Positions 582 to 22,673 of a stretch of 26,279 nt of DNA are shown here, one piece after another. The stretch's first letter is position 1, and the number at the start of each line of letters is the position of its first letter. A program made the position numbers and the translations under genes. The notes beneath the pieces are model-generated. The model had not been told where the DNA came from and ran no database searches. It saw nothing but the letters and a program-made list of their open reading frames with translations. The stretch comes from a virus: IMG/VR virus record IMGVR_UViG_3300022198_001508, positions 1-26,279 of that record. One strand, 5' to 3'.

Positions 582-1289
582 TTACAATTGACTGGTTAAG
601 TTAGTTAATGTCTGTATTCTAACTGTGTAATCAACCTGAATTAATCTGTTCAATGATTTTTGTACAGGGTGGAATACAACGTGTGTTAACAGTTTACCTG
701 TTGTTGCTAATCCACTTGTACCATCTGTACTACGTGCTTTAAGTCCGAGCTCATCAAAAGTATATGTATCATCAAGGGTAGTTGAATTATCAAATGCGCT
801 TTGTCCTGTCGGTTCTCCGTAATCTAACAAGCAACTTACAACTATGTCTGTATACACTCTACCAGGTGTATGTCTAATTTCCATTTTGTTACGTGTAGAA
901 TCAGCATTTAGTGCGCTAGTGTTATCTACAATTTTAGCAAAGGTTGGATTGTACAAGTTACTGTTGCTGGTATTGGTGTTTGATGGCAAGTAGTTAATGA
1001 CCCCAGTTGGGTCAACACTTGTACCACCGTTACCAAAGTGCATTTCGTAAATGTAACTTTGTCCTTTGTTGGCAAGGCTATATGCTATTGCTTCACTGAT
1101 GTTTTCATAGTGAATAGCATTGCGCTTGTCAATGAATACTTCCCCAGACTCTGGGTCAAAGATTTTAATATGACCTTGTACGTGTAAACCGCTTTGTTCG
1201 TCGGGTTTACGCTCAAGATCTGATTGTTCAGGTAGAGTTTGCATATTAGTATTTTCCGTATCTTCAGTATTTATCTGGGAATTTATCAT
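582..1289 (-). CDS. virion structural protein downstream of the giant protein, function unassigned
   Basis: A 235-residue protein. Its ATG overlaps the TGA of the giant upstream gene as ATGA, and a strong GAGAGGAG ribosome-binding sequence sits about a dozen bases before it, inside the end of the giant gene. Translation is therefore probably coupled. An internal Met at residue 16 is an alternative start, but the ribosome-binding site favours the upstream one. The first 35 residues are polar and Glu/Asn-rich. The body begins at HVQGHIKIFDPESGEVFIDK, continues with NISEAIAYSLANKGQSYIYEMHFGN, and ends in a beta-rich segment with LIQVDYTVRIQTLTNL. There is no signal peptide or membrane segment. 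The type is familiar from tail clusters of T4-like marine phages, but I cannot tie it to a T4 gene. Its position after gp6 and the giant protein suggests a peripheral baseplate or fibre-attachment component (inference). Confidence 0.75.
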   Translation of the reverse strand: MINSQINTEDTENTNMQTLPEQSDLERKPDEQSGLHVQGHIKIFDPESGEVFIDKRNAIHYENISEAIAYSLANKGQSYIYEMHFGNGGTSVDPTGVINYLPSNTNTSNSNLYNPTFAKIVDNTSALNADSTRNKMEIRHTPGRVYTDIVVSCLLDYGEPTGQSAFDNSTTLDDTYTFDELGLKARSTDGTSGLATTGKLLTHVVFHPVQKSLNRLIQVDYTVRIQTLTNLTSQL

Positions 1290-4200
1290 GGAGTATAACT
1301 CCTCTCATCTTTAATCCAGGTAGCCCATTCTGTAGTGCTAGACTCTAGTGTATCACCAGTGCCATATGCTTTCCATAAGTAGTCCTGTGTTATTGTCTTG
1401 CCAGTAACGCTAACATTTCCGTCACTTTCAACATCACCTAGTATCTGCATTGCTGTAACGTTTGCTGTAGTGCTAAATCCATTAACTTTAATATTTGCTG
1501 TGCTTCCAATAGTTAAGTTACCACTAATAAATTGAACAGCAACAACATTAGCACTTGAGACATTTCCTAATACTTTTACATTGGCTGCTGGAGTAGTCAT
1601 TGTAATGTAATCACCAACAAATGCTGTAATTGTATCACTTAGTGATACACGCCATGTTACATTAGCGGTGACTGTTTTTTCACCTGTCAGTGTTGTTGTA
1701 GTTGTTGGTACAATATTTGGTAATATCTGTGCCAATGAACTATCAACTACACGAGTATTTGCTGTGTGTACATCCGGCGATCCAGTTCCATCAACGCCAC
1801 GACGTAATTGTGATAGTGAGTTAACATAAACTTGCTTAATGTTTGTTGTATCAATGTAACTTGTAGCATTAGCATATACATTGCCTAGTACTAAGAACAC
1901 ATTGCTATCAAATGTAATTAAACTGTCTGTCGCAAATTCTGTGTTTGCTGTCCATGTACTTGCTGTTAGTATCTTAGCGGCATCGTATTTCTGATAGTAA
2001 TGAATAAGTTCACCGTTAATGAATACTTCACCCGGAATACCAACTGCGGCACCTGGATCTGGTAACACACTTGCATCATCAACAAACAAGTTTACATCGC
2101 CTATAGACAAGTTAGCACTAAGTGTCGTTGAACTGTTAGCATTAATTCTGTAGTAGCGTCTGTTACCACTCATTGGTTCAAATACTCTAAAGCCATAACT
2201 TGCAGTGTTTGATGCTGTGTTAGTAAACACACGCATTTCAAGTGCATCAAACATTCTACCAGGAACAAGTTCTTCTGGTGCGTGACTGTTGTAAGCATCT
2301 AAGTAGAAACCACCAACAATGTTAATGTCTTCTGGTCTTGTACCAATTGCTGTATCTGTGTAGAAACTTACAATATTGCTATCTAGTAGATCGTCAATGT
2401 ACAAGTTGCTTATCTTAACGTTAGCTGTACCTTCACCGTTTCTGACACCAGCAACATTTGCTGTAGTTGCTACCCCATTAATGCTAATAACATTGGCGCT
2501 ATTTGTAAATCCGTACTTCTCGTGTATTATTGTAATGTTACCCCAATTGGTATGATTATTAAGTACCCGTGCATTTGCTGTAGTATTTGCTTGTGTTATA
2601 TAATCACCTGCATTAACAGTAACATTGGATCCCAAGTGCAATATTGAAGTTGTTTCAATTGGCTGTCCTGCCAGCATCATTTCGTCACGTGTTAAACTTA
2701 CAACTCTAAATGTTGCATTATTCTCAAAGTTAAAATTATCATACAGGCCTTCAATCTTAATTGGATCATTCAAATTAAAACCTGCATCAATAAAGTCAAC
2801 TTGCTGTGTGTTAGCACTAGTAATTTTATGACCAGTATAATTAAAACTGATTACATTACTTGTAAGTGTAAAACTATTTGATGTGAAATTTTTTCCAAGT
2901 ACTTTATTTCCCGGGTAAGTTGCCCCAAACATTAATTGATCTAAATCTTTTGCTGGTCGCCCGTAACTAGGAACATAGTAACTTGTAATTCTATCAGCGG
3001 CATTAAGTAACACATTACCGCTACCTATTTCTGTATAGCGTGTAAAGTCAAACACTGACTGTGAACTTACGTTAGCATTAGTTGCCAAGTATGCTGTATT
3101 GTTATAGAATATAATGTTACCGCTGGTAATATACAAATTACCTTCTATAGGAATTATTCCATCAGTATTAAAGTTATATTGTTGTACCCAATCACTAATT
3201 GGATCAGCAACAAACAACCGTGTTCCGTCGGCTCTAATATAAAGACCGGTTGGTTGTGTCGTGTTGACATCAGCTGAATTATGTAATGATGCTGTACTTA
3301 CATCCCAAGGTGTAGTTAATACATAACTCCATATTTTGTTGTACTGCTGTCCAGTAATATAAAGTTCTCTACCATCTTCCCTAAAACGCATACCTGTTGG
3401 TATATTTTCTTCCCCGCCAACATATAAACTACGTGAGCTATAACTTGCTGAACTTACTTTCCAAGGTATGGTTAGATCATATTCATAAACAGTATCACCA
3501 AGGGTACCAAGAATATACATTTTAGTACCATGATTATCAAATTCAACAGCACGAGCACTTGCCTCTTCGCTTACAATACTCTTAACTGAAATATTAGCGG
3601 CTGTGTTCACACTCCATGGTGTTGCTAGTCTATATTCGTAAACAGCATCTGTTGTAATACCAACAGTGTACATTCTATATCCGTCTTCCCTAAAATACAA
3701 TCCTTGTACACTTGAGTCTTGCGGTGCGAGGTTAGCGATAGCAACATTACTTGCTGTATTAACTTCCCATGGTGTAGTAAGAGTATACTCGTATACTCTA
3801 TCGGTATTGTTACCGGTTACATACATCTTAGTACCGTCTGGTTTAAAATAAACGTCAGTCACATCAATATCTTGTGAGCCCACCCCTATGTAACTATTGT
3901 ACTCAATCCTATTAAGATCGAAACAGTTAGCATTATTTCCGTTAACCACGATAGTGTCTGGATATGCTGTATTAGCTTTCCATTGTGTTACATTACTTGT
4001 ATAGGAAATTCTATCAAATTTAATTGTACTATCAATTGATCTAACAGTGTTGTAACTTCCACTAGTGTCGTACTCATTATTTAGAATAGCGTATGCTGTA
4101 CCACCTTCGCCTGTTCCGTTGATAACAACAGTAGGTATGCTAGTGTATCCCGAACCTGGCTTAGTCATAGTAATGCTAGTGATTGTTCCGGATGCTGGGT

Positions 4201-7200
4201 TGACTGTAGCAACTGCTTCGGCACCAGACCCGCCACCACCTGATATTTCAACATTGGGGGCCAAAGTATATCGTACACCTGCATTACCAACTATGATATC
4301 ACTAATTTTAAATTTATAATTGTCAGCGTATGGCTTGTATAAATCTTTAGTAAAGAAAGTACTATCTGAGCTTATCTGAATGTTTGGAGAACGCATTGTA
4401 CTTTCATCAGCAAACCACCTTGCTGGTATATCAAAGTCTGTCCAATTGCCTGTTGCTTCGTCAGTCTTACTATATGTAGGAACAAATTCACGTAATTGAG
4501 TTCTATAAGGTTTTATTTCATTAATATAATCTTCATAGAAATTTTGATTGTCTCTACTATAATTTGGTATTTCCTCTAATGTTCGTAAGTTATGGTAGAC
4601 ATCGATGAATCCAGACTTGAAAATCCAATCTGGACTTTTCTGCTCTTCAAATATATGATTAACTAATGCAAAGAAAAGATTGTTAAATTCTTTAGCGAAA
4701 CTGTTTATTAATATTTCTTGATAAACGCTGTCAAAGATCTTACCTATTTCAATTGTTGCTTGACTATCCCAGGCCTCTGCGTCAAACACAGCACTATCAT
4801 ATCCAGATGAAACTGTAGTATCGTATAAACTACTGTTGAATTGAATTGATGCATTCTGTGCCGCAATTAATGTTAATTCCCCTGTGCTTTCATAACGGTA
4901 AATTAACCAACGACCTGATCCATCATTGAGAACTTTAACATAGTCACTTGTAGATAGTGTTTGCTTTTGAATATCTCCGTATGTGTTAACAGTGTGATGA
5001 ATGTCATTACCTACTATATAAGTTGCATCGTACCAATCTTTGGTAGTCCAGAATAGTTTTGTTTTATAACTTTGTGATCTTATTAAATCAAATTCTCTTG
5101 TAATTCCGTTAAATTCAAACAAACTCCAACGATTGTCATATCGGCTATCCTCAGGGATAAGGATTTTGTATCCATCAGCAAAGCCTGTTGTATCTAAGAA
5201 GCTAATTTCTGTAAACGATGCAACTTGCGAATCGTATTGTGTTGGAAAAGCTTCTTCGGTATATAATCCATTTGGTGTTGTAGTTAATAAAGTAGGATAA
5301 TTTTTAAGGATGCTATTAACTTCAGTAACGTAAGTTTTTAAAGCCTTTGTTCTATCTGCAAAAATACTTTGTCTTGGCTTTGATAGTATACCTATTTTAT
5401 CTTGTACATTTAATAACGGATCTGGCACTATATTGTCAGATGCATCTAATCCTCGTAAACTGTCACGTAGTTTTGCAATTATTCTATTAGGAATGTTTGA
5501 AATAGAATTGCCTTGCTGTATTAATTCAAACTCACTGTGAATTAAGTTTGGATTTTTAGATGTTGAAGTATCAACATGTAGAATAACATCACTTCCTACT
5601 GTGCTGTCAGAAATATTATATAAATTAAGACTATTTGGTGCTAAAGGAGCAATATATGGTATGCCTTGATCCTTAGGATTTGTAATATAATTTTCTAACG
5701 AGCTGACACTTAAAGTTCGTTTTGCTGTGATAGGATCAACACTTGTTTTATTCCCTACCCAATAATAAAATTTATTAACAATAATTCCTGTTACAGGATC
5801 TACAGTGGTAATCTGTGTGAAGGCAGAATCATCTACATGCTTCGGAGTGCCATTACCACCGTTAGCAGTATATTGGCTAGGTAAAAATTCGCTCTCTACC
5901 CATTCGTAGACTGCAACGGTACTACCTGGGAATAACCCGCCCCAATTTTTACTTCTGTATACGAGTGTGTCTTGCTCGTAGTCAATAAAACTTAACTGCC
6001 CAGTATCTAACCAGGAACGACCTACGTGTTTATCACTCCAGTAGAATGAGTTATTAACAATAGTATTTGCGGCTGTTGCAGTGCTATACGATGCAGGATC
6101 AAACTCTTCTATATAATCTAATTCTTGGTCAACGATTCCAAGTAACTTGCCTTTAGCAGGGTCAAGGATATCCAGGAAGCTAAGAATTTGTTTAGTATCT
6201 TTATTATATATAAATGCACTATTAATTGCATCTGTAGCGACTCTTGGTTCCTTGTATCTTAATAAAGTCCAACCTGGTTTACTATTTTCATTATAATAGC
6301 TATAAACACTTCCGCCACCTACAACAATATTAGCATCATTTGTAACACCAATTACCATGATGTCGTTGACTAAGTCAATATCAGCACCGAAGTTGTATCC
6401 GGTTTGGACTCCTGCGGCAATTAACTTCTGACTGAATGCAAATACTGATGGGTTATCTTCAGACTCAAACGGATTTGGCATTAAGTCGTACATATACACT
6501 GCACCAGTATCTTTAGCAATAAGTACAAACTTTGTTCCTAAACTATCAAATGTTGTTTCTTCTCTATTAGAATCAAATGTAGTTGGTATTTCAATGTCAG
6601 CACCCTCGCTACCAATTGCTAGTTTTCCGTAACCTTGACTTAGTCCAATTGCTGTTCCAAATTTTTCTCCAATTTTGTTTGGATGTTCGATAACTTGAGT
6701 ATGCTTGTAAATCTCTATACCTAGATCAGTTAGTGCTGTTCCTGTTGACGCTGGTTTAATATTAAGTTTTTCGTTAGCAACCGCAACATTACTTGTTAGG
6801 CCTAAACGCCAATGTGACTCAACTTCTCCTGTAGTAACATTTGAAACAAACACTAGTGTGTTGCTGGCTGTTACACCAGGAATATTCTTAGCATTAATGT
6901 CTCGTACAACGGTATCTAGTCCGCCACCTAAGAATTTAACAGATCTATCGTTAATAATAATAGAATCACCAGCAGTAACAGTAGCATTAGAAACTGTACC
7001 TGTTATGTTTCCATAAACTCGTCCTACGTTTACTAATCTATAAACTGCACCAGAAGAATAACCATACTTAAAATACGACGGAGCACTGGCGTATAAATTG
7101 CACCCTGTTCCGCAGAGAGCAATATCAGTACCAAAACGTTGTCCATTTACTCCAGTTTGGCTCGGAGTAATAATTTGATCCTCAACAAATTGATTGGTTT

Positions 7201-10200
7201 CTATTCTTAGAATTTGTCCTGCTACAGGAACAGTAAACGCACCAAACTGAACACTAGATGGAGACACAGTGTAGTAATCAGCACCGTCTACTAACTCCAC
7301 ATCATTGAGTGTAACACGATATGACGAATTGAGTGCATCAGGAGCGGTATATGTAGAAGTAATACCGTCGGTTGAGAACTCTGTAATTGTTCTATGATAT
7401 ATGTAAGATAATCCTTCGTTGCCTTGCGTACCTACAATACTCTTGTCTGCACCAATTGCTATCACACTTCCGTCTCTGTTAGTACTTAAACTCGAACCAA
7501 AGTTTGTACTTGCGTTCCCGTTTATTTCAAAAATCTTCTGATAGTAGTTTTCTCTTTGGAAAACCTGTATTGCTTCGTTAAGTCCAGGTGCGCTTGTGAA
7601 TGTTATAGTGTTCCCGCTAAATTCATATTCAACTTTTGGTACATATTCAACAGCACGTAGCTGTGAATAAACAATAACTTCAGTTGGGTCACTTACTGCT
7701 AATGTAACATTACTGAATGTTGTAGTGGCACTGTCTATAACTGCACTTGTATATGATGCGGCTGAGTTGGCGCTATTGATAGCTAATAAGTTTGAGCTGA
7801 ATTCCGTAACGTTACCTGTAACTACAATAACGTTTGTATTTGTTAAATCTCTTGTACTATCAAAAACTACTGTAGCATTCGCTGTTCCCATAGTTGATGG
7901 AACAGCATGAGTAATGTAATCTCCAACACTCACACTTATGTTTGCATCTAATGTCAGTACGTATCGTAAAACTGGAAGAGATTCTGGGCCTCGTGCTGTT
8001 CTAGTAGATAATTTGTAACAAAATACCTTATCTGCTCCTTCAGCACCAACATATAGATACAGTCCGTCTCTGCTCAAAGCAAGACTTGATCCAAAACGAT
8101 CGTTTGGACTAGAACCATTGATATCAGTTATAATTTGTTGTAGGATGCCTTCTTTGTAAACATATACGTAACCTTTGCCACTAGAACTATCTGGTGCACT
8201 TATAGCTACTATGCCATTTCCGTTAACAACTGTTTCTCCAAAACTATCAACACCGGTACTGCTACTTCTAAACCCAGTAGATAATGACCAATTGTTTGTA
8301 GTACCTCTGAAGAATTCGTTTACTCGACCTGCACCCGAGCCCGGTGACCCTACATACATAACCTGTGCAAGGTCAGGCTCAATGCTAACGCTATAACCAA
8401 AATTGTCGTTGCCACTTAGTTTACTTGGGTCTAACTCTGCTGTACTGTTATATGTCCATGGATCGGTTTTGTTATATACTGCCCAATTGCCGTCGGCATC
8501 TAAGTTCTCAACCCAAACCTTGTCATTCTTAATCCATCCTTCGACAGGCATAGCGTTGTTAATATCTGTTGGGTAATTTATTTTTGCACTTGTTAATTTG
8601 TAAAGTGTGCCGCTGGCAACAACCACTGACTCTTTTTCAATGGCGTCCAGATTCTGATGCATTGCAATTCTAAATCTTGTTGAATCAACAATAGATTCTA
8701 CTTTATACACAGCATCAAATCTATCATCAAACAACTTAATAACAATTATATCGTTTTTAACCAATCCGTGATTAGCGTTAAAGATAACCTCAACAATATC
8801 ATCTGCAATAAATCTCATTGTAAAGACTAGCCCATCGATATAACTTGCTCTATATACATTCCATTCGTTGTTAAAATCTCTCGCTACCCAAATCTTATAA
8901 CCTGTGCCAATTTTATCAATAATATTTGTCAAACTCTTAAAGTTATTAAGGTCAAATAATGTAGCATCAATGTCAGACAGATTAGCAAATCCAGCAACCG
9001 GTAGAGATCGTAATTCACTAGGGGTACCACGATCTTCTGTTCTTAAGAAGTTTGCTCGATATTCGTTTGAAATTTTATAAACATCACGTTCAGTTAAAGT
9101 TACTACTCCTGGCTCAGCTTGAACACTGCTATCAATTAGTTGTACGGGCTGAGGGTTGCTTTCAATTTGGGCTTCGTCAAGTACTAACTCAGTAAATTGA
9201 TTAGTTTCTAATGATCCATACTCGCCAACTCTAACAGCCCAGTTTTCGTACCAATCAATATTACTGTCAAGATTACCAAACTGAGCTCCTGCAAGTGCGT
9301 TGATAGAATTTACTGTTCCTTTTTGTGTTATTAAACCCTGATAAAACTTACTTTGTGTAGTAACATCAATACCAAGATTAGTAAAATAATCACGCTCTCT
9401 AAACCCTATTAGGCCATTGCTGAATAGCTGAATGTCTTCGTTGGGAGGCTGATTATCTATGTCATAGAACGATGTTCCTAACCAAGCATTTGTAGCAAAA
9501 TTACGTATCATGCCACTACGTAAGTCTGACTTGTCTATCTGCTTCCATTTAGCGGTCTGAAAATCAGTTGATGCTGTAATATTTTCTAATGCTGTGTAGA
9601 ATAAATCCTTATGCTTTACTATTGATCCTTTAAGATAATCAATTCCTGAACCCCATAGATCAACATTATCACTACTAAACATAAATCCAGGTAATTCTAA
9701 GCTACCGTTCCATGAGTCTGTCTTGTGCCCAACAAGTTTTAATCGATATTGTCTGTTACCTAACTCTGGTACGTAGATAACGTCATTAAACACCGTAACG
9801 TTATCTAGTAATAATAAATGCTCGTATTGTACTAAATCAAACTCAGCAAATCCTACTGTCTGATCTCTATTAGATTGTAGAGTAAATTGATTGTCTTCTC
9901 TGTATACAGAGAAATTATTCTTTACAATAGGTTTAAAGTTAATGTCTAATACTCTGCTACCATTTGGTACATTCTTTATTGCGTCAACAGTTGCACGTTT
10001 GTTATAAACTTTAAGAAGTGTTGATACTGGGCTAAGTGTTATAATGTTACCATTATTCCATCCTTGTGAGGACCAATGTAAAAATTCTTTACAACTTAAT
10101 ATCCAATCTTTTTGTTCAGCTAACGAATAGTCTCTGTCATCAAATAAGAAACCTTGAAGTTTAAGATATCTTTCATAGCTTACTAAAAATTCAACAACTT

Positions 10201-13200
10201 CTTGTCTTGTATTAAATTCATAACCATACGGAATTGACGTTGTTGTTTTTTGGGCGTCTCTATAAACAGTTCCTTGAACTCCACCAGCTGTAATACTATA
10301 TGCATTGTTATTAATAAGACTAGGGATAATATTAAAATAAGGATCAGTTAAATTGTAACCACTTACTGTATAACCATTTGAGCTCTTGTTTACAATTACA
10401 GCACTATATGTTATTTTACTGATAGGAGATCCTTTGTATAGATCTAATCTATAATTTTCTTCAGGTATCACCACACTGTCATTAATACTGCTAGGACTGT
10501 TTTGCTCAGCTAATAGTTCGATAAATCTTTTGTCGGTATAACCAGACATTCTGTAAGTTAGCCTTACGTCTAGATTTTTTAAATTATTAATTATAGTTGT
10601 TGGTGCATCTGTTACACCAAGGTTAACAATATAATCTTTAATCCAGTTTAAGTATCCAGCAGTATAAACTGTTGCTCCAGCTGAATTAACATACCCATTT
10701 ACATGCAAGGCTGTTGGCGAAAGGTGTTGAGAAGTTTCACTTACTTCAAACTGGCCAGTAAAAGAATTTCTTAGATAATTGTTTACATTTGCTTGCAATG
10801 CAAAGAATCTTGCTGGTTTTGTTAATGCCAATGCTAGAATCGTAGCAAATGGAAACTCACTGCTACGACGCCAGGCTAATTCAACTGGACCAATATCACC
10901 AACAGCATAACTTGTATTTGCCTTACTGCTGTCAAAGTCTGACACTAAAATAGATTCTGGGCTACGAAGATTTCCGTTGTCGTCTACTGGAATAATCTGT
11001 GATAAATTTGGTCTAGCATATCGTTGATCAAATCCTTGTCTTGGCCCGCTATGTATATAACCTAAACTTAGATCACTCCATAACGTATTATTGCCACCTG
11101 TGTATGGAGCTGGTCCGTAACGATCTTGCCAGTAGTCTGGCTTTTCACTGAATCCTAACATCTCCCATGGGTGAGTATGTGGGCGGTCTGTGTCGTAGAA
11201 GTAGCGATAACATGCTCTCCATGTTCCTGGTAAACTCTCGCCATTGATAACATCTCTAAATTCTTTGTAATTCCATGTAAAAGGATCGCTACTAACAAAA
11301 TAACTATTAGTTGTAAAATCTAGTCTGTTTGTACCTACCCAGGCTAGGAAACCTTGACTTAATACCTGATTAAATTCTGTTCTAGTATAGTCTGTTACTC
11401 TAAACTTACCGGGCATATAATCGTCGATATTAAATGTGTTTACATCGTAGTCAACTTTAATATTGTTATAAATTCTACGCTCAAGTTCAATTAGTAGATC
11501 ATCTCTGAAGTCGTTGAACGCAGGAGTTAAACTCCCATCATGACCTTGAATCATGTATGCTGGTGTGCGTAGTGTGTTATCTAAATATTTCTCAGGCGCA
11601 AACTTAGGATACATTCCCATCTTTGAAGGGGTTTCAGGAACAAAGCTGCCTGATGTATCGTCATATTCAACAATGTTAATCTTATCGCCAAACAGTAGTC
11701 TAAAGGAACTTGTAAAAGTTACAGCAGGTCTAGTTTGACTAAATGTGTAATCTCTATCTTTAACCAGCAATGTCTTAGTTGTTACATTATCAACTGTTCT
11801 TGTGAGATAGATAAGAACTGCTTTATTGCTAGGAGTCTTATCATTAAAGATACTAGTGATTTCGTAACTTGTAAGCTCAGGATCAAGTATTTCAATTTGT
11901 GGAAGTCTAGTAATATTATCCTCACCGTGCGGAATCATATCAGACTGGTACCACGGGAAAGAGCTGTTCTTTACAGAATGCATCTGTGTTAATATCTGGT
12001 CAACACTTGTTGCAGGATCAGTTCTATCAATCTCAATTAACCCTGCTGTTTCTAAAAATTTATTTTTAAATTTTGTAAATTCTCTATTGGCTAAACGTAT
12101 AGAATTTACAAAATTCATAGTAGGGTGATTTAGGAATAATCCTGAATACACCATTGGTGCACTGTGCTGAAGAATACTTCCACAGGTATTTTTATATGTT
12201 ATATCTCTTAGATTGTTACTACCTGGTACTTTTCCAACAACATTTAAACTATGATTTTTCAATGAAATCAAATGATTACGCATTTGACCCAATGTTAATG
12301 TAGAAAGATTCTTGTTTAAGGTATTGATGTCAAGGTTAATTGGTACTTCGTAAAAAGAATTTTTACCAGCTGGGGTAAGTTGATTAAACACTGCAATAAA
12401 AATAACATCATTTTTACTTATAAGATCTGGGTTGACTAACACTGCAAATTTATCTACTACAGTACCTGTTGCAAAATCAGTGTTAGCTATAATTTTATTG
12501 TTTACATAAACTTTTATGTGCGGAAAATTTGTACTTGTGTCAGGTAAACTATCAATAGCAAATAAGTTTGTTACCCCGTCGTACACATAATCATAAATTT
12601 GAAATTGTTTACTAAATGTCTTTGCAATTTGCCACACGTTTGTTCTTGTGCATGTAGACTCTGAAATATTTTTCTGCAGATATCCAGCATTAATGTTTAC
12701 CGTTTCAACTACACTATTGCCTGTTAAGTAAGTAAAAGATTGATTATCAAAATTATTTTCAAATTCAATATCGCCTTGGTTGACAAAGTTCTTGTAACTT
12801 AACGGAAAACCTATAATAGGATCATTGGTTCCAGTTCCTCTCTTATAAGAAAAAATCTTATTTCCTGTAAATGTTGTTCCTGTATAAGTGGTTCCGTTGG
12901 CAAAACTAATACCTTTGTCGTCAATGATATCATACAAAGGTTCTTGAGATGTACTAGTTTTCTGCTGTGAAACTGTCCATGACGTACCGTTGAAGTGCCA
13001 CTGTTTGCCACCATTTGTTCCCGACAAAACTAGTACTGTATTGTTGTCAAGGACAGAAGCATCATCTGCTTCTACTAGGTAAGCCTTATAAACATCACTA
13101 GGATTGTCAATTGCCTTTTCAATGGTAAACGTAAAGATCTTATTTCGTACAGTATTATCTTCGTCGTTGGCAAAAACAACTCTATCACCGTGTGTTAATG

Positions 13201-15448
13201 TTAGTGTGCTACTAACTTCATATACTGTAGTATCAATACAGACCTTGCCTTGAATTTCCTGGAATGCTCGCTCTATAGTAGTATCAAGAATATCAATTGG
13301 TAACTTAGCAACTGCACCAAAGTTATACAAATTAAAATCTGGTTCAAATTCTATAATAGGTCTCTGGGCACGTTTTGTTTGGTCATACACCACATCAGTG
13401 TTATTATATACTGCCGTTCTTTGTATTACTTCCATATGCACCCAACGATTACCACGACTCCACGGATTACGGTCAAGACTTGATCTGTTGATTGTAATGT
13501 AGTTTGCAAATTCAGGTTGCAGGTATACCTCTAACCTAGCACCTACTCCGGTTCCGCCTGTGACTGACACTGGATTAGTAGGTAGTACACTATATGCTCC
13601 TCTTTGTTTAATATGAAAAGTAGCAATAGGTCCTGATTCAGGTGCTGATAAAGTTATAGTAGGAGGAAATTCATAGTTACTACCACTACTTACTATACTG
13701 ATGCTAGTTACTACACCATTAGTTATTGTCGCTGTGGCACTGGCTGTAGTTCCACCAGGCAACGGATTACTAAATGTAATTGTTGGGGCAGTTAAATATC
13801 CACTTCCGCCGTTTACTATTGTTATAGCTGTAATAGATCCATTGGTGGAGTTGATTGTTGCTGTTGCTGTTGCTGTGTCTTGTGTAATAGTGTCTACAAC
13901 TGCTACCGCGGCAGTTGTGTATGTGCCGCCTTGGATGGTAACTCGATCATCAACTTTATATCCTAGTCCTCCTGACACAACAAAACTATCATTAAGTGTT
14001 TCAACGCTAATAAGTTCTGATTCAGATATAAGCCTAATGCTGGAACCAACGCCTTCAACGTAGTAGTAGTTGTTACGGAAAGCTGCCGGTACAGATGAAT
14101 CAAAGTATATTTTCATACCATTGGTAAAAACTATTCCGTTCGGACTGGTATAATTTGTTTTTCCAATGATGTCTACCGCAGGATCTATACTATCTGTTGC
14201 GGGATCTATTATGTTAATAAAACCTACTGCATCAGGATCTTGACTACTTTGATAGTAAAGTGTTGTTAGTGGTGCAGTAATATATGGTACTAGTTCAAAC
14301 ACTTGTGATCTTGCAAAGTATTCTCTACTAGCGTTAAATGCGCCACCCTTTATACGTACTTTTGTATCTTCAGATACACTTGATTCTGACAACAATAATA
14401 TACGATCGTTGCCATCCTCGTCGGGGGTAATTGAGATGGTATAAACATTTGTTCGATCGCTTAATGGTATTAAATTACTTTGATCAAAATAAACTACACC
14501 ACTTACAGTCCTGGTTGTATCTACCCAAAAAGCATCGTCAATATATTCAACATTAACAAAAACAACGGTAGAGCCATCTAAATATTTTACAGGCCCGTCA
14601 ATTCCGCCATAGTTGTCTATTAGTTCTTGCGGTTTCGCGCCTTGTACTTGATTAAATGCCAAACTAGTTGCATAGCTAACAACTTTTGCAGTTGGCATAC
14701 TAGTAAATCTGTTTTGTGCTGTAGATGACGGTACAGTTAATGTTACTGTGCCGCTGTCGGTTCCGTTATTGGTTACACCAAATACTGTTCGTGTTGTAAG
14801 ATTACTCTGGTCAGGATCTGTACCATCTTTACCTGGCTTAGATTGAATAAAGAAATTATTGTTAGGTTCGTTTATAACAAACTCGTACACGCCTCCGCGG
14901 GCCAGCGTAATACTTGGATTAGGCACGTTAGCGTTGTCTGAGAATTCGTATGCATTATTAATTGGGTTATAGGTTACTGTGTAAGTTTTCTTCATACTTA
15001 CATTATTAGAAGTAACCTGTACAGGGTCGGGGCCAAGAGGTAACCAGTAATATTGACTAAAGTTTACAAACTTATCTAAATCAATTCTTGGATCATATGA
15101 ATAGAATTCGCTGTCAAACAATCTATTATGATTGTTAGTATGTCCGCCATAATATGAAATCTTATTAACAATGTCTGGATAGGTCGTAGAAAAATCAACT
15201 GAATTAGATAAACGATTTTTTACAATTACACTAGGCTCAAGTTGATAGTTTTGTCTACTTACATCACCTTCTGTTATATAGCTGTCATTTGCCTTATAAG
15301 AAGGTGCTAACTTTCTACCAATATAGCCGTTTATCTTTTTAAGTTGCGGTTCATTGACTAACTGATCAACTGTAGCATTTAAAAACTTTTTATTAGTATC
15401 AGTTTGAAAAACACTAGGTAAAAACTGATGAGTCTTAATTACAGCCAT
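1286..15448 (-). CDS. giant multi-domain tail/baseplate structural protein (4720 residues)
   Basis: One uninterrupted frame of 4720 codons, roughly half a megadalton, with an AAAGG ribosome-binding sequence a few bases before the ATG. It starts 11 bases after the gp6 stop, where T4 has gp7 (about 1030 residues). Visible parts in order: an N-terminal globular region with LPSVFQTDTNKKFLNATVDQ and YYWLPLGPDPVQV; GSGY-type beta repeats at about 490-630; DY-type beta modules at about 977-1021 and 1208-1263; a dense, probably globular region at about 1275-1490 containing PHTHPWEMLGFSEKPDYW; seven FG-GAP motifs with F at 2350, 2403, 2452, 2650, 2772, 2930 and 3020; another GSGY pair at about 3722-3786; five propeller-like repeats from 3872 to about 4095; and GDYIT and W-ANT modules in the last 460 residues. 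There is no signal peptide, membrane segment or recognisable enzyme motif. A peripheral wedge or host-contact role is inferred from position and modular beta composition. It could combine gp7-like and fibre functions. Confidence 0.85.
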   Translation of the reverse strand: MAVIKTHQFLPSVFQTDTNKKFLNATVDQLVNEPQLKKINGYIGRKLAPSYKANDSYITEGDVSRQNYQLEPSVIVKNRLSNSVDFSTTYPDIVNKISYYGGHTNNHNRLFDSEFYSYDPRIDLDKFVNFSQYYWLPLGPDPVQVTSNNVSMKKTYTVTYNPINNAYEFSDNANVPNPSITLARGGVYEFVINEPNNNFFIQSKPGKDGTDPDQSNLTTRTVFGVTNNGTDSGTVTLTVPSSTAQNRFTSMPTAKVVSYATSLAFNQVQGAKPQELIDNYGGIDGPVKYLDGSTVVFVNVEYIDDAFWVDTTRTVSGVVYFDQSNLIPLSDRTNVYTISITPDEDGNDRILLLSESSVSEDTKVRIKGGAFNASREYFARSQVFELVPYITAPLTTLYYQSSQDPDAVGFINIIDPATDSIDPAVDIIGKTNYTSPNGIVFTNGMKIYFDSSVPAAFRNNYYYVEGVGSSIRLISESELISVETLNDSFVVSGGLGYKVDDRVTIQGGTYTTAAVAVVDTITQDTATATATINSTNGSITAITIVNGGSGYLTAPTITFSNPLPGGTTASATATITNGVVTSISIVSSGSNYEFPPTITLSAPESGPIATFHIKQRGAYSVLPTNPVSVTGGTGVGARLEVYLQPEFANYITINRSSLDRNPWSRGNRWVHMEVIQRTAVYNNTDVVYDQTKRAQRPIIEFEPDFNLYNFGAVAKLPIDILDTTIERAFQEIQGKVCIDTTVYEVSSTLTLTHGDRVVFANDEDNTVRNKIFTFTIEKAIDNPSDVYKAYLVEADDASVLDNNTVLVLSGTNGGKQWHFNGTSWTVSQQKTSTSQEPLYDIIDDKGISFANGTTYTGTTFTGNKIFSYKRGTGTNDPIIGFPLSYKNFVNQGDIEFENNFDNQSFTYLTGNSVVETVNINAGYLQKNISESTCTRTNVWQIAKTFSKQFQIYDYVYDGVTNLFAIDSLPDTSTNFPHIKVYVNNKIIANTDFATGTVVDKFAVLVNPDLISKNDVIFIAVFNQLTPAGKNSFYEVPINLDINTLNKNLSTLTLGQMRNHLISLKNHSLNVVGKVPGSNNLRDITYKNTCGSILQHSAPMVYSGLFLNHPTMNFVNSIRLANREFTKFKNKFLETAGLIEIDRTDPATSVDQILTQMHSVKNSSFPWYQSDMIPHGEDNITRLPQIEILDPELTSYEITSIFNDKTPSNKAVLIYLTRTVDNVTTKTLLVKDRDYTFSQTRPAVTFTSSFRLLFGDKINIVEYDDTSGSFVPETPSKMGMYPKFAPEKYLDNTLRTPAYMIQGHDGSLTPAFNDFRDDLLIELERRIYNNIKVDYDVNTFNIDDYMPGKFRVTDYTRTEFNQVLSQGFLAWVGTNRLDFTTNSYFVSSDPFTWNYKEFRDVINGESLPGTWRACYRYFYDTDRPHTHPWEMLGFSEKPDYWQDRYGPAPYTGGNNTLWSDLSLGYIHSGPRQGFDQRYARPNLSQIIPVDDNGNLRSPESILVSDFDSSKANTSYAVGDIGPVELAWRRSSEFPFATILALALTKPARFFALQANVNNYLRNSFTGQFEVSETSQHLSPTALHVNGYVNSAGATVYTAGYLNWIKDYIVNLGVTDAPTTIINNLKNLDVRLTYRMSGYTDKRFIELLAEQNSPSSINDSVVIPEENYRLDLYKGSPISKITYSAVIVNKSSNGYTVSGYNLTDPYFNIIPSLINNNAYSITAGGVQGTVYRDAQKTTTSIPYGYEFNTRQEVVEFLVSYERYLKLQGFLFDDRDYSLAEQKDWILSCKEFLHWSSQGWNNGNIITLSPVSTLLKVYNKRATVDAIKNVPNGSRVLDINFKPIVKNNFSVYREDNQFTLQSNRDQTVGFAEFDLVQYEHLLLLDNVTVFNDVIYVPELGNRQYRLKLVGHKTDSWNGSLELPGFMFSSDNVDLWGSGIDYLKGSIVKHKDLFYTALENITASTDFQTAKWKQIDKSDLRSGMIRNFATNAWLGTSFYDIDNQPPNEDIQLFSNGLIGFRERDYFTNLGIDVTTQSKFYQGLITQKGTVNSINALAGAQFGNLDSNIDWYENWAVRVGEYGSLETNQFTELVLDEAQIESNPQPVQLIDSSVQAEPGVVTLTERDVYKISNEYRANFLRTEDRGTPSELRSLPVAGFANLSDIDATLFDLNNFKSLTNIIDKIGTGYKIWVARDFNNEWNVYRASYIDGLVFTMRFIADDIVEVIFNANHGLVKNDIIVIKLFDDRFDAVYKVESIVDSTRFRIAMHQNLDAIEKESVVVASGTLYKLTSAKINYPTDINNAMPVEGWIKNDKVWVENLDADGNWAVYNKTDPWTYNSTAELDPSKLSGNDNFGYSVSIEPDLAQVMYVGSPGSGAGRVNEFFRGTTNNWSLSTGFRSSSTGVDSFGETVVNGNGIVAISAPDSSSGKGYVYVYKEGILQQIITDINGSSPNDRFGSSLALSRDGLYLYVGAEGADKVFCYKLSTRTARGPESLPVLRYVLTLDANISVSVGDYITHAVPSTMGTANATVVFDSTRDLTNTNVIVVTGNVTEFSSNLLAINSANSAASYTSAVIDSATTTFSNVTLAVSDPTEVIVYSQLRAVEYVPKVEYEFSGNTITFTSAPGLNEAIQVFQRENYYQKIFEINGNASTNFGSSLSTNRDGSVIAIGADKSIVGTQGNEGLSYIYHRTITEFSTDGITSTYTAPDALNSSYRVTLNDVELVDGADYYTVSPSSVQFGAFTVPVAGQILRIETNQFVEDQIITPSQTGVNGQRFGTDIALCGTGCNLYASAPSYFKYGYSSGAVYRLVNVGRVYGNITGTVSNATVTAGDSIIINDRSVKFLGGGLDTVVRDINAKNIPGVTASNTLVFVSNVTTGEVESHWRLGLTSNVAVANEKLNIKPASTGTALTDLGIEIYKHTQVIEHPNKIGEKFGTAIGLSQGYGKLAIGSEGADIEIPTTFDSNREETTFDSLGTKFVLIAKDTGAVYMYDLMPNPFESEDNPSVFAFSQKLIAAGVQTGYNFGADIDLVNDIMVIGVTNDANIVVGGGSVYSYYNENSKPGWTLLRYKEPRVATDAINSAFIYNKDTKQILSFLDILDPAKGKLLGIVDQELDYIEEFDPASYSTATAANTIVNNSFYWSDKHVGRSWLDTGQLSFIDYEQDTLVYRSKNWGGLFPGSTVAVYEWVESEFLPSQYTANGGNGTPKHVDDSAFTQITTVDPVTGIIVNKFYYWVGNKTSVDPITAKRTLSVSSLENYITNPKDQGIPYIAPLAPNSLNLYNISDSTVGSDVILHVDTSTSKNPNLIHSEFELIQQGNSISNIPNRIIAKLRDSLRGLDASDNIVPDPLLNVQDKIGILSKPRQSIFADRTKALKTYVTEVNSILKNYPTLLTTTPNGLYTEEAFPTQYDSQVASFTEISFLDTTGFADGYKILIPEDSRYDNRWSLFEFNGITREFDLIRSQSYKTKLFWTTKDWYDATYIVGNDIHHTVNTYGDIQKQTLSTSDYVKVLNDGSGRWLIYRYESTGELTLIAAQNASIQFNSSLYDTTVSSGYDSAVFDAEAWDSQATIEIGKIFDSVYQEILINSFAKEFNNLFFALVNHIFEEQKSPDWIFKSGFIDVYHNLRTLEEIPNYSRDNQNFYEDYINEIKPYRTQLREFVPTYSKTDEATGNWTDFDIPARWFADESTMRSPNIQISSDSTFFTKDLYKPYADNYKFKISDIIVGNAGVRYTLAPNVEISGGGGSGAEAVATVNPASGTITSITMTKPGSGYTSIPTVVINGTGEGGTAYAILNNEYDTSGSYNTVRSIDSTIKFDRISYTSNVTQWKANTAYPDTIVVNGNNANCFDLNRIEYNSYIGVGSQDIDVTDVYFKPDGTKMYVTGNNTDRVYEYTLTTPWEVNTASNVAIANLAPQDSSVQGLYFREDGYRMYTVGITTDAVYEYRLATPWSVNTAANISVKSIVSEEASARAVEFDNHGTKMYILGTLGDTVYEYDLTIPWKVSSASYSSRSLYVGGEENIPTGMRFREDGRELYITGQQYNKIWSYVLTTPWDVSTASLHNSADVNTTQPTGLYIRADGTRLFVADPISDWVQQYNFNTDGIIPIEGNLYITSGNIIFYNNTAYLATNANVSSQSVFDFTRYTEIGSGNVLLNAADRITSYYVPSYGRPAKDLDQLMFGATYPGNKVLGKNFTSNSFTLTSNVISFNYTGHKITSANTQQVDFIDAGFNLNDPIKIEGLYDNFNFENNATFRVVSLTRDEMMLAGQPIETTSILHLGSNVTVNAGDYITQANTTANARVLNNHTNWGNITIIHEKYGFTNSANVISINGVATTANVAGVRNGEGTANVKISNLYIDDLLDSNIVSFYTDTAIGTRPEDINIVGGFYLDAYNSHAPEELVPGRMFDALEMRVFTNTASNTASYGFRVFEPMSGNRRYYRINANSSTTLSANLSIGDVNLFVDDASVLPDPGAAVGIPGEVFINGELIHYYQKYDAAKILTASTWTANTEFATDSLITFDSNVFLVLGNVYANATSYIDTTNIKQVYVNSLSQLRRGVDGTGSPDVHTANTRVVDSSLAQILPNIVPTTTTTLTGEKTVTANVTWRVSLSDTITAFVGDYITMTTPAANVKVLGNVSSANVVAVQFISGNLTIGSTANIKVNGFSTTANVTAMQILGDVESDGNVSVTGKTITQDYLWKAYGTGDTLESSTTEWATWIKDERSYTP
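1430..1690 (-). repeat. GDYIT module, copy 3 (C-terminal)
   Basis: GDYIT at residue 4612 in the context LSDTITAFVGDYITMTTP, followed by AANVKVLGN, VVAVQFISGNLTI and IKVNGFSTTANVTAM. The module lies in the last 140 residues of the giant protein. Confidence 0.65.
1855..1975 (-). repeat. W-ANT module in the giant protein (shared with the 540-residue protein)
   Basis: STWTANTEFATDSLITFDSN, then VFLVLGNVYANATSYIDTTN. The same pattern, W-x-ANT-x-F-x-TDS-x-I ... V-LGNV-A, occurs in the 540-residue protein at 20200-20310. The W...T.(Y/F)...(D)S.(V/I)...(Y/F) spacing recalls small carbohydrate-binding modules of the CBM5/12 type, but that relation is only suggestive. Confidence 0.5.
2440..2640 (-). 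repeat. GDYIT module, copy 2
   Basis: GDYIT at residue 4281 in the context LGSNVTVNAGDYITQANT, followed by TANARVLNN, NITIIHEKYGF and ISINGVATTANVAGV. The order of elements matches copy 3 near the C-terminus. Confidence 0.65.
3170..3890 (-). repeat. five tandem propeller-like repeats of about 51 residues in the giant protein
   Basis: Five tandem units share the core G-(T/Y/R)-(K/R/E)-(M/L)-(Y/F), then VYEY-(T/R/D)-L and (T/A/I)-PW-x-V-(N/S)-(T/S)-A. The G residues of the cores fall at 3872 (GTKMY), 3923 (GYRMY), 3974 (GTKMY), 4026 (GRELY) and 4075 (GTRLF), giving spacings of 51, 51, 52 and 49 residues. Each core follows an (R/K/D)-x-DG or HG turn. The period and the G-x-x-(M/L)-Y-V pattern suit small beta-propeller blades. 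The fifth copy is degenerate and lacks the PW end. Confidence 0.75.
4080..4300 (-). repeat. second GSGY-type repeat pair in the giant protein
   Basis: About residues 3722-3786: GVRYTLAPNVEISGGGGSGA, then PASGTITSITMTKPGSGYTS and IPTVVINGTGEGG. The same unit type is found about 3,200 residues earlier. The pair lies shortly before the five-blade repeat array. Confidence 0.6.
6250..8410 (-). repeat. seven FG-GAP-type motifs in the giant protein, blades separated by insertions
   Basis: Seven FG motifs followed by alternating hydrophobics and a GA/GS/SAP turn: FGYSVS (F2350), FGETVV (F2403), FGSSLA (F2452), FGSSLS (F2650), FGTDIA (F2772), FGTAIG (F2930) and FGADID (F3020). Examples are FGSSLALSRDGLYLYVGA and FGTAIGLSQGYGKLAIGS. 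The first three are about 50 residues apart; the later ones are spaced by 90 to 200 residues because other beta modules lie between them. Seven such units form a seven-bladed propeller in integrin-alpha-type proteins (family knowledge). That these seven close into one propeller is inference. Confidence 0.7.
7740..7960 (-). repeat. GDYIT module, copy 1 (inside the FG-GAP region)
   Basis: Residues from about 2497, with GDYIT at 2509: LDANISVSVGDYIT, then a GTANATVVF segment and a TNVIVVTGNVTEF segment. It is inserted between the third and fourth FG-GAP motifs and resembles two later copies in the same protein. Confidence 0.6.
13550..13990 (-). repeat. GSGY-type beta repeats near the N-terminus of the giant protein
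   Basis: About residues 490-630. Units of the form GxGY-x(3)-PT-x(3)-F, then a GG-rich turn with alternating Ala/Thr and VTSIxI: GGLGYKVDDRVTIQGG, NGGSGYLTAPTITF (GGSGY at 547), SSGSNYEFPPTITLS (about 589) and a weaker final unit around 613. Such units recur in marine phage structural proteins. The Gly/Ala-rich coding also yields a long open frame on the opposite strand, which is a shadow. Confidence 0.6.
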
Positions 15449-19184: not shown

Positions 19185-19481
19185 TTACTCCGCTAATAAT
19201 CTCTGACCAGCAAGGAAGTACTCTCCTGGGTTTCTTCCTTGACTATCTTCAATTGCAGGGTTGAATCTAAACTCTGCTGTAGCCACTGCAGGATTTGGTG
19301 CATCGGCAAACTGACAAAATACTGTGATATATCCTAATATGTCATTTCGTCCATCCTTAGGCGATACTGCGCAGGACCATCGCAACTTTTCAATGATTTG
19401 ATCTATATCAATATCGTGACTTACACCAAACATTGCACCCAAAAATGTTTTTATTTTTTCTTGTTCAATTTGATTAAACAC
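19185..19481 (-). CDS. 98-residue tail-cluster protein of unknown function (GTG start)
   Basis: The start codon is GTG at 19481-19479. It overlaps the last 8 bases of the upstream 540-residue gene, and an AGGAG ribosome-binding sequence lies about nine bases before it inside that gene. The N-terminus is helical and charged (NQIEQEKIKTFLGAMFG), and residues 22-35 read HDIDIDQIIEKLRW. The rest is mixed, with GYITVFCQFADAPNPAVATA and a polar end. No signal peptide, membrane segment or enzyme motif is visible. Sandwiched between the lysozyme-like protein and gp25, it may be a small baseplate or assembly component (inference). I do not recognise the family. Confidence 0.75.
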   Translation of the reverse strand: MFNQIEQEKIKTFLGAMFGVSHDIDIDQIIEKLRWSCAVSPKDGRNDILGYITVFCQFADAPNPAVATAEFRFNPAIEDSQGRNPGEYFLAGQRLLAE

Positions 19482-21096
19482 TGATGTCTGCTCCTAGTGT
19501 TTTTACCGCATATCGTCCAGCATTATAAAATAACGAACCTGGGCGTCCTTGACTATCGACAATCAAGTCACCTTTTAATCTCCAATCTTTAACTTTACTT
19601 GAAATTAATGAATTGTATGTAGTAACAATTTTAGTATTAAATGATGTAATACTTGCTACTGCTGAAGTTATTGCTCGTTGTTTTACTAATCCGTCAATGT
19701 TAGAAAATAATGCTGATTGCACTAATTTAGTCACTGTTAGTGCGCTACTATTTAGGTCTTCAGCCAAAGAGTATAGTTGCCTTTGTTCAAGCGGTGTGGT
19801 TGAGGTTATTGTAAAATCTTCTAATAAATCACCAATACCGCTATCGGTATAGTTTTGATAAGCACTGTCTGCTGTGCCTAGGTAACCTAAGGTGTTTGAT
19901 AGTTGTGTTGCTAAGTTTGATGTTCTAGTAATTACATAACTAAGGTCTACGTTACGTAGTTTTGAAACACTACCTGATGCAACGTTACTTGAGATAGCTT
20001 TACCTAGTCTAAATGTTGTATTACTGTCAGTGTCTGTAATGGTATGTATTTCGTATATTCCGTTAAACGAAGACGCACCGTTAACCTGCACTAGTGTACC
20101 TTGTGAAAATAAAGATCTATTAGAGTTTAGTGTAACATCACTAACTGTTCCGCCATTGGGCACTCCAAATTCTTCTATGTTTGAAGGATTAATATTTGCA
20201 GATGTGTCTGCAAAAACATTTCCTAACACTTTATATACAACATTGTTAATTACAATAATACTGTCGGTGTCAAATACTGTGTTTGCTTCCCATAATGTTG
20301 AAAATGTTCTATCGGCACTTCCAATACTGGTTACAGGATAAGTTGCAGAACTAGTTACTGTTCCGGTATCAACTGTTGATGCAATATTACCACCAGTACT
20401 AGTGTAGTCAAAGACATACTGACTTACTACGTTTCCAACTGTTTGAGTTCCGTTTAAATCAACGTTTGAGCTGGTTTCTACAACAACTTGTCTACCACTG
20501 CCTAATGTATGTGCAGTAGGGTATGTATTAACAAAAGCAATGTTATCGGTTCTACTTACACTAGCAATAGAAAATTTTTCGTTGGGGACAAAAAAACTTG
20601 TACGATAAGTTGATATATGGTCTTGGAATTGATATGCAACTGCTAGTAATCCTCCAACAACATCCTTGCTATCCCCAGGCTTCATAACACCAGATGTTAC
20701 ACAAGATGTGTACTGCTCTGTTAAAAAACGCTCCATGACATCATCTTGTGTTGTGCGGCTCAATAAAAATGCTTCTATGGAATCTATGCCACCTTTGCCC
20801 GTCCAGGTCTCACCATCTTCGCCTACGTACCCATAGTTGATCAGTGTCTTGAGATGTGTTGCATATCTACCAAATCTTGATCCTTGGCTGTAAGCAATGT
20901 TGTCTCCTGTTTCTAAATATGCAATTTGTGCCATTAATGCTTTAACACTTCTTTTGCGTAATCCAGGGACATCATTATTAATACTTTTAATACCAACTCC
21001 GGGAGCAGTGGTTGTCAAGCCAAGAGTTGTTCTAGGAGCCAACTGATCTGAATTCAATGGCTGTGCGTTTGATAGTAATATACCTTGGTCAGCCAT
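19474..21096 (-). CDS. baseplate-associated protein with lysozyme-like N-terminal region
   Basis: A 540-residue protein whose ATG overlaps the gp5 stop as TAATG. Residues 50-160 resemble the lytic/lysozyme-like domain found in many phage tail proteins. They show AQIAYLETGDNIAYSQG with Glu62 in the usual catalytic position, then SRFGRYATHLKTLINYGYVG, a GIDSIEAFLLSR segment, a QDDVMERFLTEQY helix and GLLAVAYQF. In that family the pattern is E-(S/T)-x-(N/D)-N ... GRYQFG ... L...GY; here the Q of RYQFG is Ala and the following FG is lost. Residues 170-400 are beta-rich and Thr/Ser-rich and include a W-ANT module. The C-terminal part is helical, with a final SQGRPGSLFYNAGRYAVKTL. Cell-wall cleavage during infection is inferred, not shown. 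A purely structural, inactive descendant is the main alternative. Confidence 0.8.
   Translation of the reverse strand: MADQGILLSNAQPLNSDQLAPRTTLGLTTTAPGVGIKSINNDVPGLRKRSVKALMAQIAYLETGDNIAYSQGSRFGRYATHLKTLINYGYVGEDGETWTGKGGIDSIEAFLLSRTTQDDVMERFLTEQYTSCVTSGVMKPGDSKDVVGGLLAVAYQFQDHISTYRTSFFVPNEKFSIASVSRTDNIAFVNTYPTAHTLGSGRQVVVETSSNVDLNGTQTVGNVVSQYVFDYTSTGGNIASTVDTGTVTSSATYPVTSIGSADRTFSTLWEANTVFDTDSIIVINNVVYKVLGNVFADTSANINPSNIEEFGVPNGGTVSDVTLNSNRSLFSQGTLVQVNGASSFNGIYEIHTITDTDSNTTFRLGKAISSNVASGSVSKLRNVDLSYVITRTSNLATQLSNTLGYLGTADSAYQNYTDSGIGDLLEDFTITSTTPLEQRQLYSLAEDLNSSALTVTKLVQSALFSNIDGLVKQRAITSAVASITSFNTKIVTTYNSLISSKVKDWRLKGDLIVDSQGRPGSLFYNAGRYAVKTLGADISV
20200..20310 (-). repeat. W-ANT module in the 540-residue protein
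   Basis: FSTLWEANTVFDTDSIIVIN followed by NVVYKVLGNVFADTSANINP. It matches the module at 1855-1975 of the giant protein in order and spacing: W-x-ANT-x-F, TDS, then a hydrophobic run and VLGNV. Confidence 0.5.
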
Positions 21097-22673
21097 TATT
21101 CATCCTTTTGCTGTTGACTAGGTTTAAGTGTGCCATCATTAAGTTGCTGTGGACCCGACTCACGGCTCCATGGTTCGTGTGTTGGTGTAAAGTGTGCGAT
21201 ACTTTCAAGTGTTGAGTCCTCATCTATTACCCAACGTCTAATAGCGGTATCAAATTTAACATCTTGTTTTTGATATTGTTCAAATGGGGCATTGCTTTCG
21301 GGATTCTCAGGGGCACGAATACTTTTACCTGCTGTGTTCAAGTGTATATCACTACCACCAGTTAACTGCATTTCACCACTCTTAACTGTCCAACCACTGG
21401 TTGTTCCACTATGCATACGCAAGAATCTTTCTGTCTCGATGTGTGCGTTAAGTGTTTTAATTCTAGTATCACTTCCTACAAGTAATCCAAAACTACCTGT
21501 GTCAATATTGTGTAGTTGCTTGATCTTTTCTCTCTTGATATGTGTTTCAGTTTCTATACGCTTTTCTGCAAAACAATTAATGCTGTCGCCTGCGTGTATG
21601 TTAACGTTTCCGTCTGCGTGTATATTAACATTGGCTTCACTGCGTAGGCTAAATGATTTCGTGTTGTATACATTTACCGCACCGTCGGCTGTGAGCTCTA
21701 TCCAAGCATTACCTTTTTTATTTGTAATATAGATAATATTCTCTGTATCGTGCATTAATATAGTATGCCCACCAGCAGTACGTAGCCTTACTAAATCGTT
21801 ATCGCCGTATACATCACCGTCATCCATAACAAGCGTATGCCCACCGGATCGTCCTGGAGGAGTGTTTATTAGATTGTTGTCTATTCTAGTGTCAACATTG
21901 TTGATATAATCGTCAACTACTTTCTTTGCGGCTTCTTTGCCTTCTAAATCTCTATAGATGTTAGCTAAATCAGGGTCGGGTCTGCCAGGAGTGCTGAAGC
22001 CAAACACCCTACTGGGTGCTTCTCGTTGACTACTACTTGTTATTGTACCTCTAATAGAATCTGTTTCTAATCCTTGCTGTATTACTGTCTCAGATTGGGC
22101 GGTATGTGCAACTCTTTTCAATGTTAACATATCCCCACGCAAACTTGATTCTCTACTGTTTAGATTAACTTCGCTGGCTGGTAAGAATACTTCCCCTGAA
22201 TCTAATTGTCTACCTGTTAATTGATCATCTTTGATAATTGTGTTCTCAGCTGGAAGTCGAGATACACCCGGAGTCATGTGCCTTGATTCTGCATTAGGCA
22301 AGCAGGCAAACCAGTAACCGCGACTAGCATCTCCCATAACAAAAGTCACCAACACCTGATTTTCTAGGTCGGGCGGAACTGCCCAGAACCCGTATGTTTG
22401 TTTTTCATTGCCGATGTTTTCTTGTGGCGATGCTGTACCTATTGTTGTTCCTGCAAATGGACTAGCATAGGTTACTGTGAACCAGTTTGCTGATTGAGAG
22501 GGATCACCACCAATGTCAGGAATGTAAACTTGTAGTCTGCCTAATCTAGCAGGATCTGAGTTATTCTTTACAATGCCAATGTAAGGGCCACTGTCAATTT
22601 TAATACCAGACTGTTCATTGGTATAGTGTTTGTTTATCCCGCCGTGTTTCTTTGAATTTATTGGATCTGCCAT
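21096..22673 (-). CDS. 5: baseplate hub spike protein gp5 (no lysozyme domain)
   Basis: A 525-residue central spike protein. Residues 30-130 form the gp5/VgrG-type OB fold: YIGIVKNNSDPARLGRLQVY, then IPDIGG, then YGFWAVPPDLENQVLVTFVM and GDASRGYWFACLPN. Residues 275-460 give the beta-helix needle: GGHTLVMDDGD, LRTAGGHTILMHDTENIIYI, NAWIELTADGAVNVYN and the short repeats VNIHADGNVNIHAGDSI. The C-terminal HFTPTHEPWSRESG is also usual for marine gp5 proteins. T4 gp5 (575 residues) carries a lysozyme between OB fold and needle. Here the 145 residues between them are polar and show no such domain. A GGAG ribosome-binding sequence lies before the ATG, within the 10-base gap after the upstream gene. 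The next gene begins at its stop codon. Confidence 0.92.
   Translation of the reverse strand: MADPINSKKHGGINKHYTNEQSGIKIDSGPYIGIVKNNSDPARLGRLQVYIPDIGGDPSQSANWFTVTYASPFAGTTIGTASPQENIGNEKQTYGFWAVPPDLENQVLVTFVMGDASRGYWFACLPNAESRHMTPGVSRLPAENTIIKDDQLTGRQLDSGEVFLPASEVNLNSRESSLRGDMLTLKRVAHTAQSETVIQQGLETDSIRGTITSSSQREAPSRVFGFSTPGRPDPDLANIYRDLEGKEAAKKVVDDYINNVDTRIDNNLINTPPGRSGGHTLVMDDGDVYGDNDLVRLRTAGGHTILMHDTENIIYITNKKGNAWIELTADGAVNVYNTKSFSLRSEANVNIHADGNVNIHAGDSINCFAEKRIETETHIKREKIKQLHNIDTGSFGLLVGSDTRIKTLNAHIETERFLRMHSGTTSGWTVKSGEMQLTGGSDIHLNTAGKSIRAPENPESNAPFEQYQKQDVKFDTAIRRWVIDEDSTLESIAHFTPTHEPWSRESGPQQLNDGTLKPSQQQKDE

Follow-up and report, generated by a model that had tools for sequence, protein, structure and literature searches.

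The closest described relatives of the giant gene studied here belong to PHROG 10938, a family of 3324 positions annotated as 'virion structural protein', whose members include 121Q gp582, phAPEC6 gp245, RaK2 ORF070, CBB_236, PA5oct gp355 and AUZ94962 of Atu_ph07. In phAPEC6, gp245 was detected in the virion by mass spectrometry (381.88 kDa, 17 unique peptides, 7.6% coverage; PMC7247149), and its gene, which comes after the gp6-type gp244, computes to 381.87 kDa. CBB_236, which adjoins the gp6-type CBB_237, appears in the CBB virion proteome with the values 21 and 7.72, taken here from the table columns as peptides and % coverage (PMC5259590). The orthologue PA5oct gp355 is flagged ESI-MS/MS in its database record. 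The family therefore consists of virion proteins, as shown for orthologues in three isolated phages, which agrees with the structural role first proposed for the giant protein. The family is very common, being found at at least 590 places in IMG/VR, yet its only labels are 'virion structural protein' or 'head and packaging'.

In T4, the slot after gp6 is filled by gp7 (phrog_964), the baseplate wedge initiator, which acts with gp10 and has 1032 aa, as the approximate figure of 1030 residues in the initial annotation had it. In cyanophage S-CAM22, gp6 is followed by a 6273-aa 'virion structural protein' (gp152; L134:11976-28120; S-CAM22 50468-69289; compare phrog_2885, 4179 positions). Because gp7 profiles match inside this protein (E 1.2e-6 and 1.4e-15), giant gp7 proteins exist, and S-CAM22 gp152 is a genuine one, larger than the protein described below.

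Here we analyse a window of 26,279 nucleotides from a virus (IMG/VR record IMGVR_UViG_3300022198_001508). The family and its size were already known; what we add is the domain layout and a set of controlled gp7 tests.

The giant gene and its reading frame

1286..15448, minus strand: giant virion protein gene, PHROG 10938 family, 4720 aa
15460..18747, minus strand: gp6-type baseplate wedge subunit, 1095 aa (phrog_10646, E=0; phrog_219, 3.5e-22)

A single intact frame of 4720 codons, filling over half of the window directly after gp6, had been read from the sequence, and our data agree on each point: the frame is continuous, it takes 54% of the window, and gp6 ends 11 nt upstream. The gene begins with an ATG preceded by an AAAGG-type ribosome site, its stop overlaps the start of the next gene by 4 nt, and its product would have a mass of 522 kDa and a predicted pI of 4.8. 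Chance does not account for such a frame: the log10 P expected for it is about -157, and 200 shuffles gave no stop-free run longer than 215 codons. In pairs with usable synonymous divergence, dN/dS across the entire frame was 0.05-0.10, and the frame is under strong purifying selection. A tandem-repeat search at the DNA level revealed no array within the gene.

Family membership, size and linkage to gp6

The giant protein matched PHROG 10938 with E=0 and 1155 bits in four stretches, the best one at residues 980-1924, and adds a new member to a known but scarcely described family. Its nearest relatives are full length (4702-4719 aa, 59-74% identity). Collinear relatives were also found in Atu_ph07 (4449 aa), Phosso (4555 aa), PA5oct (3857 aa), SCTP-2 (3807 aa), Vibrio 2.275 (3771 aa), 121Q (3323 aa) and RaK2 (3326 aa), and more distant members follow gp6 in phages RAS14 (3138 aa) and XacN1 (3313 aa). 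The window protein, with 4720 aa against 3323-4555 in the PHROG 10938 isolates, is longer because of an insert at residues 141-640, an FG-GAP propeller and C-terminal modules. Closed frames, present in 56 of the 120 environmental loci examined, encode 3508-4913 aa. The suspicion that size alone might not be new was correct, as such a length is ordinary both for the family and for the slot after gp6. The architecture had been considered worth describing unless close full-length homologues were already described; homologues of the same layout do exist in databases and in virions, but we found no paper in the open-access literature describing the domain architecture of the family or gp7 tests. 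Among the loci without a closed frame, L064, L069 and L078 have frames of the same family that run for 5930-6054 codons and are still open at the sequence end, indicating even larger members.

The gene for gp6 lies directly upstream in all 106 testable environmental loci, that is, those among the 120 with enough upstream sequence, and the giant gene follows gp6 in six of the seven isolated-phage genomes examined. The adjacency is not absolute, because in Salicola phage SCTP-2 (L004), the one isolate among those examined where the two genes are separated, gp6 lies at ~231 kb and the giant gene at 127.8-139.2 kb, ~90 kb apart. The SCTP-2 giant gene adjoins another ORF of 3096 aa.

Conserved blocks and structural models

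15029..15448, minus strand: residues 1-140, N-terminal conserved block (LPxxFxTDxNxKFL ... RQxYQLEP ... DKFVNFxQYYW)
11939..13528, minus strand: residues 641-1170, conserved block M
9674..11656, minus strand: residues 1265-1925, most conserved core (AlphaFold2 pLDDT ~90)
9119..9520, minus strand: residues 1977-2110, conserved helical block D (KFYQGxIxxKGTxNAIxAL motif)
4289..6283, minus strand: residues 3056-3720, conserved block E-F (FKTSFI...YINEVKPYRTxIRE)

The family has four conserved blocks (residues 1-140, ~640-1170, 1265-2110 and 3056-3720), and the PHROG 10938 isolates share them with the window protein in the same collinear order and in the same position after gp6. The two denser globular regions of the initial annotation are too low a count.

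Two AlphaFold2 models were obtained, one of residues 1262-2105 (pLDDT 83.7) and one of the D-E-F blocks of the compact relative L091 (pLDDT 81.5). No PDB counterpart was found for the confident model of the core (residues 1265-1925), and a PDB sequence search with the whole giant protein gave no match. A search of BFVD returned mainly the giant's own family. The top PDB fold matches of the second model, ubiquitin E1 and endosialidase, were partial (TM ~0.06), and we attach no meaning to them.

Beta modules and cassettes

13991..15028, minus strand: residues 141-486, variable, inserted in comparison with jumbo phage isolates
13529..13990, minus strand: residues 487-640, Gly-rich GSGY beta modules
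9521..9673, minus strand: residues 1926-1976, CBM5/12 (chitin-binding type 3) fold
6284..8401, minus strand: residues 2350-3055, seven FG-GAP repeats (integrin-alpha type) with extra loop modules
7679..7981, minus strand: residues ~2490-2590, first GDYIT-type beta module, inside the FG-GAP propeller
3929..4288, minus strand: residues 3721-3840, Gly-rich GSGY modules
3134..3928, minus strand: residues 3841-4105, five YVTN/lactonase-like propeller repeats of ~51 aa each
1289..3133, minus strand: residues 4106-4720, C-terminal region with two GDYIT modules
1814..1954, minus strand: residues 4499-4545, second CBM5/12-like module, common to a neighbouring 540-aa gene

The mosaic of at least five kinds of beta module reported at first was confirmed both by the identities of the modules (Gly-rich GSGY, FG-GAP, GDYIT, YVTN-like and CBM5/12-type) and by their gain and loss among relatives. 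Several modules are gained or lost as near-clean cassettes. Residues 487-648 are missing in relatives L027, L045 and L101; residues 2487-2600, with the first GDYIT module, in L016, L018, L024 and L026; and the YVTN-like cassette (3840-4100, with repeats spanning 3868-4100) is missing or strongly reduced in L026, L045 and L101. The three GDYIT modules of the giant lie at residues 2509, 4281 and 4612. The GSGY modules at 3721-3840 resemble those of phrog_460/phrog_1922 and of the cyanophage giant, S-CAM22 gp152 being, like the window protein, a giant with GSGY modules encoded after gp6. The C-terminal region (4106-4720) had no match in phage isolates. With its four blocks, exchangeable modules and near-clean cassette boundaries, the layout divides an unnamed giant into testable pieces.

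The FG-GAP repeats, at residues 2350, 2403, 2452, 2650, 2772, 2930 and 3020, match Pfam FG-GAP_2 in four stretches (E 5.8e-15), and the region is predicted to form a beta-propeller. The N-terminal propeller of integrin-alpha also has seven repeats of FG-GAP type but, unlike it, the giant holds whole extra modules in the loops between repeats. Depending on the locus, blocks D and E lie between 233 and 1704 aa apart, with ~235 aa separating them in two compact relatives, L091 and L082. This spread indicates that the FG-GAP region, too, has been inserted. It is also the fastest-evolving large segment among close relatives, with a mean identity of 59%, against 73% for the core (1265-1925) and 74% for the C-terminal region. 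A C-terminus acting as a hypervariable receptor tip was considered and rejected, this region being as conserved as the core. Given that the C-terminal region is not hypervariable, the modules that interrupt the core may have a structural role instead of binding the host.

The module at residues 1926-1976 has the fold of CBM5/12 domains, with Foldseek matches in the PDB at probability 1.00 and an rmsd of 1.2-2.5 A in most of them. At the sequence level, a profile search linked it to chitin deacetylases (E 7e-4), and its Pfam score of 14 lies under the Pfam cut-off of 26.2. It shares the aromatic signature W-Y-G-V-Y-F-W with the CBM5/12 domains of chitinase and of the baseplate spike of Agrobacterium phage Milano, and the aromatics W1932, Y1938, Y1951, F1963 and W1968 are kept in 57-64 of 67 relatives. 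Unlike known CBM5/12 domains, however, it sits inside the most conserved core. Judging from its fold, we regard it as a putative carbohydrate-binding module.

Relation to T4 gp7 and the baseplate wedge

The giant occupies the gene position of T4 gp7, as the initial annotation stated, but homology to gp7 was not supported. The giant is more than four times longer and has no detectable sequence similarity to gp7 or, for the two modelled parts, PDB fold match. No profile match to phrog_964 was found in the giant protein, and hhalign against T4 gp6-gp10 revealed neither gp7 nor gp10 homology, with a probability below 1% for gp7 and of 0.3% for the core (1265-1925) against gp10. When the giant family was aligned with a gp7 profile (six phages) and with cyanophage gp7 regions, the hhalign probability was below 1%, against 95% in the control alignment of T4 gp7 with the cyanophage giant, in which a T4 gp7 motif is recognisable, whereas the window family has no recognisable one. 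Moreover, profiles phrog_964 and phrog_17744 had no match in seven complete jumbo genomes; the same profiles matched T4 and S-CAM22, and gp6 was found in all nine genomes. Profile and sequence searches for gp7 or gp10 homology, and PDB fold searches with the two models, gave no support past a coincidence at motif level. The family raises the question of what fills the role of gp7 in jumbo phages without a recognisable gp7.

From synteny, the detection of orthologues in virions and the absence of a recognisable gp7, we conclude that the giant is probably a wedge protein of a jumbo myovirus of RaK2/Atu_ph07 type, placed in the slot of T4 gp7 and built from a conserved scaffold and exchangeable beta modules. 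It is encoded in that slot and very likely assembled there as well. We infer that each of the six wedges of the baseplate most likely holds one copy, the four conserved blocks forming a scaffold that presumably joins gp6. The type of the modules and their cassette behaviour suggest that they probably project from the baseplate, where they would contact the envelope of the host or further components of the baseplate. The several baseplate roles first proposed (wedge arm plus host contact) are plausible in this arrangement.

This wedge reading can be refined in two ways. The scaffold may be truly homologous to T4 gp7 but have diverged past detection and grown by insertions as in cyanophages, a reasonable possibility although somewhat short of probable. 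It shares the slot after gp6, no other gp7 was detected in the seven jumbo genomes, and S-CAM22 has a profile-matched giant in the same slot. Furthermore, weak alignments of block D place its KFYQGxIxxKGTxNAIxAL motif precisely at the FYSTKGT motif that gp7-type proteins carry, with KFYQGLITQKGT aligning at this FYSTKG-type wedge motif; none of these alignments is significant, however, and block D had no Pfam, PHROG or PDB-sequence match to gp7-type families. The hhalign result also speaks against homology, as does the lack of any T4 gp7 chain among the best 50 PDB fold matches of each of the two models (1262-2105; L091 D-E-F).

The second refinement, which we hold more tentatively, is that an unrelated protein took over from gp7 by non-orthologous replacement, giving a different architecture of the wedge initiator. 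In its favour, the homology tests were negative with working controls, and no PDB counterpart was found for the confident core model. Nevertheless, undetected homology is weak evidence at such divergence, because the gp6 of the window is itself recognised mainly via ~100 N-terminal residues, and the fold models cover only residues 1262-2105 and the D-E-F blocks of L091. A stronger form of this proposal, that the core represents a wedge fold not described before, replacing gp7 in a large group of environmental jumbo phages, in a chain of >500 kDa combining a wedge connector with a cassette-swapping host-contact array, seems rather unlikely.

The beta-rich, modular composition of the giant and its modules of carbohydrate-binding type would also suit a tail appendage, such as a whisker, fibre or spike network protein, encoded beside gp6 by chance, and RaK2-group phages such as CBB do bear whiskers and many fibres (PMC5259590). 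We consider this improbable, given the close linkage to gp6 across very diverged phages and the large, conserved, non-repetitive scaffold with its helical blocks; an appendage would also leave the jumbo genomes with no detectable gp7. Its length, and the alternation of conserved blocks with inserts, could also be read as those of a polyprotein cut into separate baseplate parts at assembly. No cleavage signal was identified in the giant, and the published peptide coverage of 7-8% for the phAPEC6 and CBB orthologues cannot decide the matter; cleavage of this kind strikes us as very improbable.

Neighbouring genes

The genes upstream of the giant include gp25, gp53 and a gp5-type hub with an OB domain, all of them baseplate genes. 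The gp5-like hub protein (21096-22673; Phage_base_V) had no lysozyme match in Pfam, whereas fused hub-lysozymes are annotated in related jumbo phages. Two further genes sit between the hub gene and gp25, one encoding a 98-aa protein without a family match (19185-19481) and the other a 540-aa protein (19474-21096) with only a weak PHROG match of hub type. A CBM5/12-like module occurs both in the 540-aa gene and in the giant C-terminus (46% identity over 41 aa, E 9e-7), and a 40-base stretch of DNA is 80% identical between positions 20254-20293 and 1916-1955 of the window. This similarity indicates that the module was exchanged recently between these neighbouring baseplate genes.
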